A stretch of 50,784 nt of DNA from contig NZ_GL538186.1 of assembly GCF_000165735.1 (NCBI RefSeq), positions 1 to 50,784 of the forward strand, written 5' to 3'. The notes beneath the pieces were generated by a model. That model did not search any database. It had not been told where the DNA came from and worked only from the letters and a program-made list of their open reading frames with translations. The position numbers were made by a program, and so were the translations under genes. Of the stretch, positions 3,943-39,979 are shown one piece after another (the first letter of the stretch is position 1; each line of letters starts with the position of its first letter). The DNA comes from Megasphaera micronuciformis F0359 (GTDB lineage: Bacteria > Bacillota > Negativicutes > Veillonellales > Megasphaeraceae).

Positions 3943-4935
3943 TTACAGTCTGTCTTGCTTAGCATAGCTAACCCCTACGCCGTGGTCCCACGTAGAGCCG
4001 TCGCAGTCGATGTTCGCCCAACTGAACACGTCATCGGCGTACCCTTCTGCTCGGCCTTTTCGCCTGAATTCGAGGTTAAGCCGCTCGGACTGACTAGGCA
4101 ACTGAATATGCCTGGGCATTTCTTTATCTCTCGGGAAATACGCTTTACTCGTCAATCTTGCAAGCAACATCATGCCTGTAATCGTAATGTCATCGCCGCC
4201 GCCCGAAAGTTCGTTAAGCTCCAGGCTGTCGAAGTGAAGCGAGTCAAGATTCGGATTATTATATATCGGGTCGAGCATAGCGTATGCCGGAAATTCGATA
4301 ACAGCTTGACCGTCTGCACGCCGATAAATCTTCACGCCGTTCTCGTTGAACAGCTCTTCATTGCCCCCGCCCGTCTGCACTGCCGGGATTGTAAGCGAAG
4401 CGGCCGTACCTTCGCTGCTGTTCGGGTACTCCATTGTAAGAATCTTTTCGTTGCCGTCAAAAGGTTGCATGAGGGCAAAGTCAAGCCGTCCGCTGTCGGG
4501 TATCATCTGACGATTGCCCGTCGTGTCCACAACATAAAATCCGGGCTGACCTTCCACATGTACGACCGTGTCTCCGACTGCAACCGACGTACCGTCAACA
4601 AGCTTGAATTCGGCAAGATCCGAGGTATAGCGACCGTCGGGAATGACTTCCCGTAACAACGCTTTGAGAACGTCCTCCAGGCTGTCGCTGTCGACCTTCA
4701 TCGCTCTATCCTTCATCATTCTGTATACTGTCAGAAAGTTCATGCTGACCGGCTCGGAGCTGCTGCCGTTCTGCCCGTGAAGGCTTTCGAGCCATTCGTC
4801 AACCGTGCCAACAAAGCCCTGTTCGACAGCTACTTCGTAAGCACTCTTGCCGTCCTTGCCCGGTAAGCCCGGGACTTGTACGGCAATGTTAAGCGGATTC
4901 GGTAATGTGAGTTCTACTTTTTGTTTTTCTTCCAT
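3943..4935 (-). CDS. Tail fibre / receptor-binding protein, 330 aa
   Basis: The N-terminal 60 residues contain a collagen-like start (GLPGKDG) followed by SAYEVAVEQGFVGTVDEWLE, a module common in phage tail fibres and baseplate proteins. The middle and C-terminus are beta-rich and of low similarity to anything I recognise, as expected for a receptor-binding tip. It is the last structural gene before lysis, the usual place for a variable fibre in siphophages. Binding specificity is unknown. Confidence 0.75.
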   Translation of the reverse strand: MEEKQKVELTLPNPLNIAVQVPGLPGKDGKSAYEVAVEQGFVGTVDEWLESLHGQNGSSSEPVSMNFLTVYRMMKDRAMKVDSDSLEDVLKALLREVIPDGRYTSDLAEFKLVDGTSVAVGDTVVHVEGQPGFYVVDTTGNRQMIPDSGRLDFALMQPFDGNEKILTMEYPNSSEGTAASLTIPAVQTGGGNEELFNENGVKIYRRADGQAVIEFPAYAMLDPIYNNPNLDSLHFDSLELNELSGGGDDITITGMMLLARLTSKAYFPRDKEMPRHIQLPSQSERLNLEFRRKGRAEGYADDVFSWANIDCDGSTWDHGVGVSYAKQDRL

Positions 4936-31683: not shown

Positions 31684-33358
31684 TTAGTTCATTGATGCCG
31701 CTAATATTGCATCGTCTTTCTGTTCTTGCTCCGTCTTGATTTCGCCCGTTGTCGGGTCTACATTGTCCGGCACTGTTTCGGCCTCGGCATCGATATAATC
31801 CGTTTCATCCGGTTCGGCTGTCATATCCGGCGTAATGTTCTTCTTGATAGTGCCGTCTGCACTCATTTCACGAACGAATTCGGTTTTAAGCGGTGCATAT
31901 TTTAAGCACTTCTTGAGAACGGTCTTTTTCGCCATTTCGTCGAAGTTCTTAGCCCAAGGACTGTAATTGCTTCCATATGCCTGGCTGTACTTCTTGGCGT
32001 GATTCTTTACGTCCTCGGCACTCATAACCTCGAATCCGTAACCGCCGTCCTTGGTATGGAATACGGCATAGTAGGCAATGACCGCACCCCGATTGCTTGT
32101 GGCCGGTACGTGTCGGAGCTTCGGTTCGAGTCCTAATTCGTATTCAAATTCGTCGTTCTCGTGTACCTCGTGTGCTTGTATATCCCGGACCTCGCCGCTC
32201 CGGTATGCCAGGTCGATTAATCCTTTATCTGTTATCCTTACGGTTTATCATCCCGTAAGCACGGACTATCTCTTCACGCTTATGCGTGCCATGCACTTCG
32301 AGCAGTAACTCATCGTCTGCCCTACGCTGCTACATTCATCGCAGCTAGTCTCTACACTCCGTTAAGAGCTTTATATGATATCCTTTGACCGTTCCACTTC
32401 TTTTAATAGCCTTCGTCACGGTCGATGCGTTTACACCAAGTTTTACAGCAACGTTTTTAATTCCGATAACGACTTCTCCGGTTTCTATAATTAGTGCCTT
32501 TTTTAAGTGTCCTGCATTCGTTTGAGGAAATATTTTGTGTCGTGCCTTTTGTCCTACACTAATTTTTTTGCCGACTTCCGGCGGCATCTTTTTACCTGCC
32601 AGTGCCTTGGAAAGTTTTTCCCTTGTTTCCATAGGCCTCGGCTTTCCAATGGTGTTATATTCGGGTTGTAATTTATGGATAAAATCCAGTTCCTTTGCTG
32701 CTATCTCTTGTTTACTTGTTTCTTCCGGGAAAATTTCAATAGGCTCAATCGTGAAATTATCTCTGCCATATCTTAGAATGTCTTTCTTGACGGCCGAGTT
32801 AACGTTTGATGTGTAATCTCGCCATTGCTGTACACGTTTTTTAAATCGTGTTGTACTGCCGATATAGAATTTCCCGTTTAACACATTAGTAATTTTGTAA
32901 ACACATTTCATATCATGTCGCTCCTTTCAAAGCACGGTATTACCCTCTTTAGTGACGGGCTTCACCGTTAGCCCCTGCAAGAGGACACCCCTGAGTAATA
33001 GGGTTCACACGGTTTTACTTGACCAAAAGGTTTAGCCAAGTTGGAATTGGCACTCGAGCGTGCCTTTATTCTTATACGGAATGAGATACGCCTGGCCAAG
33101 CGGTGTGTTCGGCTCTACACCCAACTGTGCCGCTTGCATCATCGCCCCCAGGAACGATTTCGGAGTGCATTGTTGTAATTGAGGATTGCTGCTCATCGCC
33201 GTGAGCACCATACGGGTGAATCTCTCACCCGTGATGACTGTCGGCAGGGCCTTCTGGATTTGGTCGCCCATGCTGACGACGAGGTCTTTCATGCTCTTTA
33301 CTCCGTCCGGTTTGTTGTTTGCTTTCGTTGTCATGATGCCGCCTTTTGTTGTTGCCAT
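31684..33358 (-). CDS. recT: RecT recombinase, split by a group I intron (two exons)
   Basis: Exon 1 is 33034-33358 and exon 2 is 31684-32228. Joined they give 870 bp, 289 residues. Exon 1 ends with LECQFQLG and the first base of a Tyr codon; exon 2 begins with the other two bases and KGLIDLAYRSGEVRDIQAHE, exactly the RecT core. The C-terminus is acidic (DYIDAEAETVPDNVD). RecT anneals single strands in partnership with the exonuclease encoded next upstream. The ribosome site is taggagg. Without splicing, translation stops one codon into the intron. Confidence 0.92.
32229..33033 (-). other. Group I intron with homing endonuclease gene
   Basis: The 805-bp insert follows group I rules. The upstream exon ends in U and the intron in G. 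P1 pairs exon CUUGGCU (33034-33040) with GGUCAAG (33018-33024), with a U.G pair at the splice site. P10 can form between intron CCUUU and exon AAAGG. P7 is GACUA (32346-32350) with UAGUC (32264-32268), inside the classic contexts AGAGACUA and AGAUAGUCC. P9 is a perfect CUUACGG/CCGUAAG stem. A likely P8 is GCUGC/GCAGC. Confidence 0.9.
32345..32911 (-). CDS. GIY-YIG homing endonuclease inside the recT intron, 188 aa
   Basis: The N-terminal 90 residues are a GIY-YIG nuclease (CVYKITNVLNGKFYIGSTTR, then FKKRVQQWR). Next come a NUMOD3-type segment (TREKLSKALAGKKMPPEVGKK) and a C-terminal helix-turn-helix (GIKNVAVKLGVNASTVTKAI), both typical DNA-binding modules of these enzymes. It would cut an intron-less recT allele and promote spread of the intron. 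The stop codon TAG lies within the P7 strand of the intron core. Ribosome site aaaggagcg before ATG 32911. Confidence 0.9.
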   Translation of the reverse strand: MKCVYKITNVLNGKFYIGSTTRFKKRVQQWRDYTSNVNSAVKKDILRYGRDNFTIEPIEIFPEETSKQEIAAKELDFIHKLQPEYNTIGKPRPMETREKLSKALAGKKMPPEVGKKISVGQKARHKIFPQTNAGHLKKALIIETGEVVIGIKNVAVKLGVNASTVTKAIKRSGTVKGYHIKLLTECRD

Positions 33359-33371
33359 AATTGATTACCTC

Positions 33372-34310
33372 CTAAATTTTGAATACTCTAATAGGGTTGC
33401 CTTGCTTGCTGTATTTCTCGTATACGTCCGGCATTTCGGCTTTCAGCTTCTTGCTGTCTACCGTGACTCGTCCGGCTTGCGTCTTCCATGTGACTTTACG
33501 CTCACCGGCATAGGCGATTTCGTGGTCGCCAAGCATTAACTTGATGCCGTTCTTCTTGCTTTCGATTTGGTCCTTGATTCTGTCGGCCGCCTCGTTCAAT
33601 TCGTCAATTTCGGCCAACAGTTCGTCCGCTTCCTTCGGTAATGTAATGCTGTCGGTCACACCTCCCGGGAATCGTTCGGCCAAGGCCTGGGAACAACTCT
33701 TGCTACCGTCTACGTCCGGCATGATGCCGCCTTTGACGTTGTCTTCCCAAAACGCCTTCTCGGCCTCGATGAGTGCCGTTATATCTTCCTCGTTCCTGGG
33801 TATCTCCTTCTGCACGAAGTGATTACCGCCGATGAGGCACGCTATATACCACTTTTCGCAACCGGTTACTGCCATATAGTGTTGGCATTGAAGGTAGTAC
33901 GAATCGGGTACGTTGTCGCCTTCCCACTCTTTGGCCTTGAATCCGTTAGCCGTCTTGCATTCCAGGCCGGCGTTTTCGCCTACGACCAGGCGGTCGACGT
34001 TGGCTATCATGAACGGGTAATCAAGCGATTGAAGGGTCCCACATTTTTTTACTTTTAATCCCGTAAGCTCAGTAAACCGGTTCGCAACCGCTTGTTCGTG
34101 AACATTCCCCCAATATACGCACTCATTGTCTGAGAGGTCTTCAGGCTCTACCTGTCCGGTCTTTTCCTGCCATAACTTGAACGGTGATTTCCAACGGTTA
34201 AGCCCGGCTATGATTGAAGCATCACTACCGCCGATCCCGATGTTTCGAAGTTTTTCCCAGGCCTTTCTGTCTTTCATTTCCTCTACTGTCATGATGAGTT
34301 TTGCATTCAT
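33372..34310 (-). CDS. YqaJ-type recombination exonuclease, 312 aa
   Basis: The YqaJ signature is visible: GIGGSDASIIAGLNRWKSP near residues 25-43, VYWGNVHEQAVANRF near 65-79, and PFMIANVDRLVV then GLECKTANG near 100-120, with the acid/Lys catalytic set. This lambda-Exo-like enzyme resects duplex ends for RecT, encoded downstream. The C-terminal 90 residues include a helical segment (LLAEIDELNEAADRIKDQI) and KVTWKTQAGRVTVD. Confidence 0.9.
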   Translation of the reverse strand: MNAKLIMTVEEMKDRKAWEKLRNIGIGGSDASIIAGLNRWKSPFKLWQEKTGQVEPEDLSDNECVYWGNVHEQAVANRFTELTGLKVKKCGTLQSLDYPFMIANVDRLVVGENAGLECKTANGFKAKEWEGDNVPDSYYLQCQHYMAVTGCEKWYIACLIGGNHFVQKEIPRNEEDITALIEAEKAFWEDNVKGGIMPDVDGSKSCSQALAERFPGGVTDSITLPKEADELLAEIDELNEAADRIKDQIESKKNGIKLMLGDHEIAYAGERKVTWKTQAGRVTVDSKKLKAEMPDVYEKYSKQGNPIRVFKI

Positions 34311-38281: not shown

Positions 38282-39822
<1,541 letters not shown>

Positions 39823-39827
39823 GAGTG

Positions 39828-39902
39828 TGGTGACCCCTACGGGATTCGAACCCATGTTATCGCCGTGAAAGGGCGGTGTCTTAACCGCTTGACCAAGGGG
39901 CC
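39828..39902 (-). tRNA. tRNA-Glu (anticodon TTC)
   Basis: Acceptor GGCCCCT/AGGGGTC with one G.U pair, anticodon loop CTTTCAC, encoded CCA. Second gene of the tRNA operon. Confidence 0.95.
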
Positions 39903-39903
39903 A

Positions 39904-39979
39904 TGGCTCCTCAAGTAGGACTCGAACCTACGACAAATCGGTTAACAGCCGATTGCTCTACCGACTGAGCTATTGAGGA
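39904..39979 (-). tRNA. tRNA-Asn (anticodon GTT)
   Basis: Acceptor TCCTCAA/TTGAGGA, anticodon arm ATCGG-CTGTTAA-CCGAT, encoded CCA. First gene of the operon, one base from tRNA-Glu. Confidence 0.95.

Follow-up and report, generated by a model that had tools for sequence, protein, structure and literature searches.

The stretch of DNA examined here (50,784 bases, hereafter the window) carries on its minus strand, in gene order, a RecE/YqaJ-type exonuclease (33372-34310; PF09588, E 5.9e-38; phrog_434), a first recT exon (33034-33358; 108 codons and the first base of Tyr109; PF03837 positions 1-61, E 1.4e-16), an intron containing a GIY-YIG open reading frame, a second recT exon (31684-32228; PF03837 positions 133-187, E 1e-12 for the ORF 31684-32025) and a DnaD-like helicase loader. 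The intervening segment (32229-33033, minus strand, 805 nt, ending in G) is read as a group I intron from the exon join, from alignment with an intronless allele and from a covariance match. A PHROGs scan of ten window ORFs gave matches in nine of them, and as these include tail, tape measure, major head, portal and terminase proteins we regard the region as a prophage. Three consecutive tRNA genes (Rfam; 39750-39979, minus strand) lie possibly near its edge.

Left unspliced, the RecT frame meets a stop at the junction (GGC U|AA), and RecT production is therefore predicted to depend on splicing. When exactly 33033-32229 is removed, the joined frame (...ECQFQLG-Y-KGLIDLAYRSG...; stretch around the junction ECQFQLGYKGLIDLAYRSG) reads on to its normal stop, which places the intron after the first base of the Tyr codon that belongs to the conserved G-Y-K/R-G motif. 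The RecT domain extends over both exons (PF03837 in each half), and the joined protein matches the RecT of PDB 7ub2 (E 5e-19). Group I introns are reported to prefer conserved sites (PMC2814812, in the portion available), and the G-Y-K/R-G codon of RecT fits this preference.

Intronless recT genes

The same genome (37 contigs, 1.76 Mb) contains a second recT, on contig C30 (L004:981-1868), which lacks the intron. The joined window recT aligns with it in a single 1007-nt HSP (72% identity, gapless at the junction), and the unjoined sequence yields two HSPs, one ending at 1312 and the next starting at 1314. The proposal of the initial annotation, that removal of an 805-bp segment (32229-33033) rejoins RecT in frame, is thus borne out by the join and by this alignment, and an intronless recT, which it had proposed to look for in relatives, exists within the very genome that carries the intron. 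RecT alignment found 14 loci in IMG/VR, and L022, the window's own record, is the only one with a split here: a RecT of 29% identity (L024) gave one continuous HSP, though its DNA does not match the site pattern, and the closest relative found (L011; RecT 87% identical) is without the intron. Across the 17 genomes of the bacterial family, the only DNA match to the intron was the window's own.

Structure of the intron RNA

The core helices P3, P4, P7 and P8 with J8/7, a P1 of exon and guide that ends in U.G at the splice site, and the terminal guanosine of the intron are all present (minus-strand coordinates throughout). The internal guide GGUCAAG (33018-33024) pairs in 7/7 positions with the exon strand CUUGGCU (33034-33040), i.e. 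the last 7 nt of exon 1. Against this guide the C30 allele forms 5/7 pairs (hand count), fewer than the window's own exon, and the weaker pairing is a possible reason, among others, why the C30 recT was not invaded. The 5' strand of P3 (CCGUGUG, 33006-33012) pairs with UGCAUGG (32289-32295), and this helix has, by eye, covarying counterparts in the introns of Geobacillus virus E3 (CUCGGUG/CGCCGAG), Bacillus phage phiAGATE (CGUGGUG/CGCCACG) and Klebsiella phage RCIP0039 (CCAUGUG/CGCAUGG), on account of which our first guess for P3 (UCUUGCA/UGCAUGG) was dropped. The helix reading further gives two hairpins between P3 and P4 (CCCU/AGGG and CCUC/GGGG; 32972-33003), located at the same places in the E3 and phiAGATE introns (by eye), as well as P4 (ACGGU/ACCGU) with P5 (CCC/GGG) (32934-32968) and a 7/7 P9 hairpin (CUUACGG/CCGUAAG; 32237-32259). 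The strand AGGAGC (32920-32925), which holds the ribosome-binding site of the endonuclease, can pair with GCUCUU (32364-32369), in the last codons of the endonuclease ORF, and would thereby form P6a. The 3' catalytic core (P7, P7.1, P7.2, P3', P8, J8/7 and P7') occupies 32262-32353 according to the covariance model described below. The window's P7 reads G[A]GACUA/UAGUCC and that of the first-fetched relatives A[C]GACUA/UAGUCU; both the P7.1 and the P7.2 hairpin are present between P7 and P3', the IA2 subgroup itself being described as heterogeneous (PMC11878797, as far as available).

The P1 with its U.G splice pair and the helices P7, P8 and P9 drawn in the initial annotation were recovered in this reading. 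Its P10 was recovered as a pairing of CCUUU (33026-33030) with AAAGG of exon 2 (32222-32226), or in the neighbouring register UAAAGG/CUUUUG by automatic reading, yet on weaker evidence, since P10 pairing in the recT introns described below is only modestly above that of shuffled exons (mean 5.0 vs 4.2).

Covariance searches

We built a covariance model of the 3' core from P7 to P7' (R1) on five introns with the window excluded, namely those of Geobacillus virus E3, a Pseudomonas phage, Klebsiella phage RCIP0039, T4 td and T4 nrdB. All five are of the short type (alignment A4); joint MAFFT alignments of long and short P7.1 types (A2, A3) were misaligned. The non-T4 training introns had first been found by blastn with the window intron, and R1 is thus independent of the window's letters, though not of the search. 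On both strands of the 50,784-base window R1 produced a single match (32353-32262, minus strand; 51.6 bits, E 5e-11, the E-values of such searches being rough). In 44 further loci it recovered all 10 fetched phage introns (9 loci; 5 introns used in training and 5 not) and matched nothing in the remaining 35, which include intronless recT and GIY-YIG loci.

The Rfam group I model (RF00028) did not match the window, neither at gathering nor at E<=10, and at E up to 0.1 it also left the two recT introns that lack an ORF (L094 and L128) unmatched. We take this miss as weak evidence against a group I intron, because at gathering RF00028 also misses the introns of T4 td and nrdB, along with the E3 and JEP1 loci; it does match L058. 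With lax filters, related ORF-less phage introns score 85 (L048), 71 (L046) and 48.7 bits (the E3 tape measure intron, E 4e-10, just below the gathering score of 50). A match to RF00028 is a library hit and not a defining group I feature, and a single alignment is considered unlikely to capture the structural diversity of group I introns (PMC6125680, in the part seen). The initial annotation had held that failure to match any group I model would speak against the intron: for RF00028 such a failure was found, and for the purpose-built R1 it was not. Phage introns of such kind are probably undercounted, since Rfam missed the window intron as well as L094 and L128; the available text of PMC11878797, which describes Bastillevirinae introns in four gene families, notes that current models may miss phage introns.

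The endonuclease gene

The ORF in the loop closed by P6a (32345-32911, minus strand; 188 aa) carries a GIY-YIG domain above the Pfam cut-off (PF01541, 33.8 bits, cut-off 22.6), with NUMOD3 just below its own (20 vs 20.4 bits), and its UAG stop lies inside the 5' strand of P7. In alignment with T4 I-TevI (25% identity) Tyr5, Tyr16, Arg26, Glu74 and Asn86 are kept, which, by the I-TevI residue numbers that we take to apply, are of the catalytic type. The Arg, Glu and Asn act in I-TevI catalysis (PMC2988022, partial text), and a T4 mutant in the hairpin that sequesters the I-TevI ribosome-binding site splices td poorly (same source). By analogy, translation of the endonuclease and splicing of the window intron likely compete.

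Close relatives of the endonuclease protein in IMG/VR were confined to the window's own record. Eight phage records, seven from Enterococcus (VD13, BC611 and Entf1 included) and one from Synechococcus (RB11-B), have GIY-YIG proteins ~32-34% identical to that of the window. The GIY-YIG proteins of genus g65 (L026-L045) are 33-45% identical to it in the matched stretch, and the fetched stretches of these 20 loci contain no R1 core.

Introns at one recT codon

A strictly filtered R1 search of 380 genomes of the same class located the core in 36 genomes, one of which is the window's, and of the thirty matches fetched as loci only one besides the window's own lies with a RecT (L081). This second recT intron occupies the same codon of a RecT only 28-32% identical to the window's; its exon 1 and endonuclease match L132 (Anaerovibrio slackiae NZ_VUNR01000013) at 100%, and the two were taken as the same locus. 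The 5' core letters GTGAACCCTATTACTCAGGGGTGT are common to the window and L081 (E3 has the same with G for one A), and this pattern retrieved 49 loci from IMG/VR and the GTDB genomes (44 viral and 5 genome loci, with L125, the window's own record, and some duplicates such as L126/L130 among them). R1 found the 3' core downstream of the motif in 48/49 loci, and in 18/49 tblastn with the joined RecT showed a recT interrupted around the motif, with the break falling between residues 108 and 110. With the window's own record excepted, the RecT HSP identities of these split loci range from 23.6% to 79.3%, so that insertion at the same codon reaches RecTs as low as 23-36% identical to the window's. 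Counting identical introns once leaves 16 sequences in the 18 loci, the window's being one.

In all 18 recT introns the junction falls at U|AY of G-Y-(K/R)-G (S-Y-R-G in L114), the exon ends in U and the intron ends in G; exon borders follow the ends that tblastn gave for residues 108 and 110, the exon end of L114 was set by hand (its HSP being one residue short), and the 3' junctions of L084, L102 and L095 were placed by searching beyond the core for A[TC]AA[AG]GG. P1 is complete (7/7) in 16 of the 18 and reaches 6/7 in L132 and L120, the guide being the best-scoring window near the intron start, and P3 is 7/7 in all 18 (44/48 loci overall; none of the four loci without a full P3 by automatic reading is a recT locus), the search pattern having dictated three of the seven letters in the P3 5' strand. 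Owing to these two properties of the counts, the compensatory changes weigh more than the counts themselves. Exon and guide change together in P1 (CUUGGCU/GGUCAAG, CUUGGGU/GCUCAAG, UGUGGCU/GGUCACA, CUUAGCU/GGUUAAG and AUUGGGU/GCUCAAU); for P3, none of 10000 permutations of 24 distinct strand pairs reached the observed pairing sum (one locus with a distance >=1500 omitted); and the first pair of P7 co-switches (A[C]GACUA/UAGUCU, G[A]GACUA/UAGUCC or U[C]GACUA/UAGUCA) in 46/48 loci, all 18 recT introns among them.

A GIY-YIG gene or its remnant is present in 16/18 recT introns. No GIY-YIG match was found in L094 (249 nt) and L128 (275 nt), and in L129 the gene is broken (match in two separate segments, longest ORF 94 aa). 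A homing cycle predicts just this coexistence of endonucleases that are intact, decayed or lost. Of 13 endonuclease ORFs checked, 11 have their stop within the P6/P7 letters, either as the UAG/UAA of GACUAG/GACUAA inside P7 (the window, L097, L085, L114 and L132) or as the UAG of GUGUAGAGACUA just before P7 (L100, L093, L084, L090, L102 and L092); those of L120 and L117 end slightly further upstream. Two RAGATH-18 RNAs (Rfam RF03064; L094:4067-4127 and 4447-4506) were observed on the contig of the ORF-less recT intron L094.

Bacterial carriers with a name comprise Anaerovibrio (class Negativicutes), a Clostridiales MAG and a Lachnospiraceae MAG, all Bacillota. Searched against 50,697 phage records (E<=1e-5), intron L097 had no match, while L092 matched 47 records and L132 matched 18, with ~1/10 of the query covered among the matches listed; at this sensitivity there is no recT intron in a named phage. 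Intron L100 returned nothing from 72,556 plasmids.

Movement between recT genes and frequency

The phylogenies of the two proteins conflict with support on both sides, in keeping with horizontal homing. In the tree of 16 RecT sequences the window groups with L100 and L093 (support 97/97), whereas in the tree of 14 endonucleases it groups with L097, L085 and L114 (98/97) and the endonucleases of L100 and L093 form a separate clade (99/98). HSP identities run the same way: the window's RecT is 68-79% identical to L100 and 34-42% to L097, and its endonuclease is 43% identical to L097 vs 34% to L100. Both trees were built without L111 and L095, which duplicate the introns of L093 and L102, and the broken endonuclease of L129 fills 38% of the tree columns. 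We therefore conclude that the endonuclease, at the least, passed from one divergent recT to another at a single site. The simplest case would be transfer of the entire intron, although the RNA-core identity of the window to 15 other members (0.63-0.74) holds no signal as to whether the core follows RecT or the endonuclease.

Interrupted recT genes are rare: they account for 5/160 sampled viral recT (4/80 and 1/80), all split at the same site by introns already in the family. The sample, drawn from two exon-1 alignment scans (the best 80 of >=560 and the best 80 of 566 relatives), consists of the relatives closest to the queries and cannot stand for a census; the two sets have no locus in common (200-nt identity check), and each contains near-identical pairs, the interrupted L146/L150 among them. 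Eleven recT had been flagged as interrupted; on reading, six of the flags proved spurious (YKA/YKS motifs, distance 0) and were discarded.

Interpretation of the locus

We consider it very probable that the window contains a mobile, IA-like group I intron in the Tyr codon of a prophage recT, which is spliced, homes by means of its GIY-YIG enzyme and belongs to a recT-specific family. The RNA would fold into P1-P9, and two guanosine-initiated transesterifications would excise it, leaving an uninterrupted recT mRNA; for these reactions we rely on the anatomy and the junction as read from the sequence. The GIY-YIG enzyme would then cut intronless recT genes of co-resident or co-infecting phages near the Tyr codon, and the intron would be copied in as the cut is repaired; the comparisons above show both empty sites and a transfer between divergent RecTs. 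The family to which the intron would belong is distributed over phages and prophages. The group I intron with a GIY-YIG gene in recT that the initial annotation had suggested is accordingly supported by the junction, the R1 match, PF01541 and the existence of the family.

Two other readings carry the same low probability. It could be that the intron is a degenerate, immobile remnant, whose ribozyme splices poorly or not at all, so that this recT is effectively dead and the genome relies on the intronless recT of the other prophage; the presence of that second recT and the loss or breakage of the endonuclease in some family members (L094, L128, L129) would suit such decay, but the window shows no damage to the helices, the terminal G, the U.G splice pair or either exon frame, and the 188-aa GIY-YIG ORF is open with its catalytic-type residues kept, which makes this improbable. 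We likewise give little credence to a domesticated switch, i.e. an intron kept because its splicing times the production of RecT and not through selfish homing. Unspliced RNA does stop at or soon after the junction, and the ribosome-binding site in P6a together with the ORF 3' end in P6/P7 would set translation and splicing in competition, as with I-TevI in td (PMC2988022, in part); however, the rarity of the intron in the viral sample and its absence from L011 fit a patchily distributed mobile element better. That a freestanding GIY-YIG gene or another insertion disrupted recT and acquired intron-like pairings by chance has next to no probability, for although similar GIY-YIG genes do occur without a recognisable core (the 20 genus g65 loci without an R1 match), the exact in-frame restoration, the covariance match, the compensatory changes in P1, P3 and P7 and the introns without an endonuclease match (L094, L128) all speak against it.

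Within the mobile-intron reading, we tentatively raise a further idea, which we hold to be rather less likely to be right than wrong: the family may have specialised on the very recombinase that would repair the cut made by the intron. Homing would then be tied to phage annealing through a recT that lies beside its exonuclease partner gene, splicing and endonuclease translation would be mutually exclusive (P6a/P7) so that the phage would alternate between cutter and annealer, and a single near-invariant codon would have allowed the spread across RecTs that are ~23-36% identical.

Comparison with known introns

A close known parallel in layout is the T4 td group IA intron, which shares with the window a P3-P9 core with P7.1/P7.2 and a GIY-YIG ORF in the P6-side loop. 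As in the window, the 3' end of its ORF forms core helices and the ribosome-binding site lies inside a helix (PMC2988022, available part). It differs in its host gene (thymidylate synthase vs recT), in an endonuclease only 25% identical to the window's, and in that neither of the two extra P3-P4 hairpins of the window intron was seen in it. Among phage records, Geobacillus virus E3 provides the closest RNA relative of the window's 5' core (its tape measure intron; blastn E 5e-6). The E3 intron and the tape measure introns of Bacillus-type prophages (the host gene of E3 by annotation, that of the other prophages by eye from the exons) likewise have the two P3-P4 hairpins and a covarying P3, but they are short: their 3' core lies ~108-129 nt after the 5' motif, which leaves no room for an ORF at P6. 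The DNA polymerase intron of phiAGATE shows the same 5' core layout and P3 covariation, but its endonuclease is of the HNH type and its host gene is a polymerase; a phiAGATE polymerase transcript (maybe of another intron than the one compared here) is reported to undergo excision in infected cells by RT-PCR, with a negative result in vitro (PMC11878797, in part). The phage nrdD introns (phi92, JSE, JEP1) share 31 nt of P7/P7.1 with the window (96.8% identity to the phi92 type), but have no blastn match in the 5' half, another P3 and another host gene. The Bacillus recA introns (PMC3984707, excerpt) are likened to the window by host gene and not by sequence, both residing in a recombination gene, RecA however not being a RecT-type annealing protein.

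Mobile introns are usually reported in phage genes for replication, nucleotide metabolism and structural proteins. Bacterial protein-coding hosts include recA, nrdE and flagellin (PMC3984707, partial text), and lysin introns are the subject of PMC5601072 (as far as its text was available). In the searchable literature (most subscription journals and bioRxiv lying outside it) no recT intron appeared in the titles and abstract starts among the matches listed, and the only two papers that contain the words RecT and 'group I introns', PMC8987985 being one, are off topic in what was accessible. The initial annotation had called a recT host unusual, which is fair with respect to this literature, but the case is no singleton, given that the same codon is split in 18/49 motif loci. 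Elements of this kind are well known; what is new, as far as searched, is the recT host, the single site across divergent RecTs and the link to recombination.

RecT proteins are mined for genome engineering, and a recT split by an intron is easily annotated as two truncated genes and then lost. The recT family would amount to a natural experiment on homing into recombination machinery, and its set of intron-bearing and intronless genes, with one pair inside a single bacterial genome, can serve as test material.

Related cores outside recT

The 3' core of L092 resembles stretches of phage records, mostly from Escherichia (79% over 87 nt, E 5e-10, among the matches listed). No annotated feature underlies the match in 11/12 of the matches listed (the other record is unannotated), and these phage records likely contain unannotated introns; the T4 td/nrdB stretch gave no match to the L092 intron like that of the mostly Escherichia phages.

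The non-recT motif loci include, by eye, tape measure and polymerase-like genes. Tape-measure-like genes of Bacillus-type prophages are split by introns of the same lineage (L088, L089, L091, L099, L107, L109, L116, L122, L126, L130, L131 and others; by eye), and a second R1 core lies nearby in several of them. In L096 and L121 a DnaE-like polymerase frame, recognised by eye from a VGAGRGSA-type motif, has the same 5' core at its end; by automatic reading the P7 letters are poor in both, as is P3 in L096. Moreover, some genomes of the same class harbour group I cores in multiple copies (G161, 11; G153, 10; G152, 4; G258, 4; loci L059, L076 and L077), and, judging by the TnpB-like ORFs close by (by eye), the cores of L059 and L076 look like IStrons.
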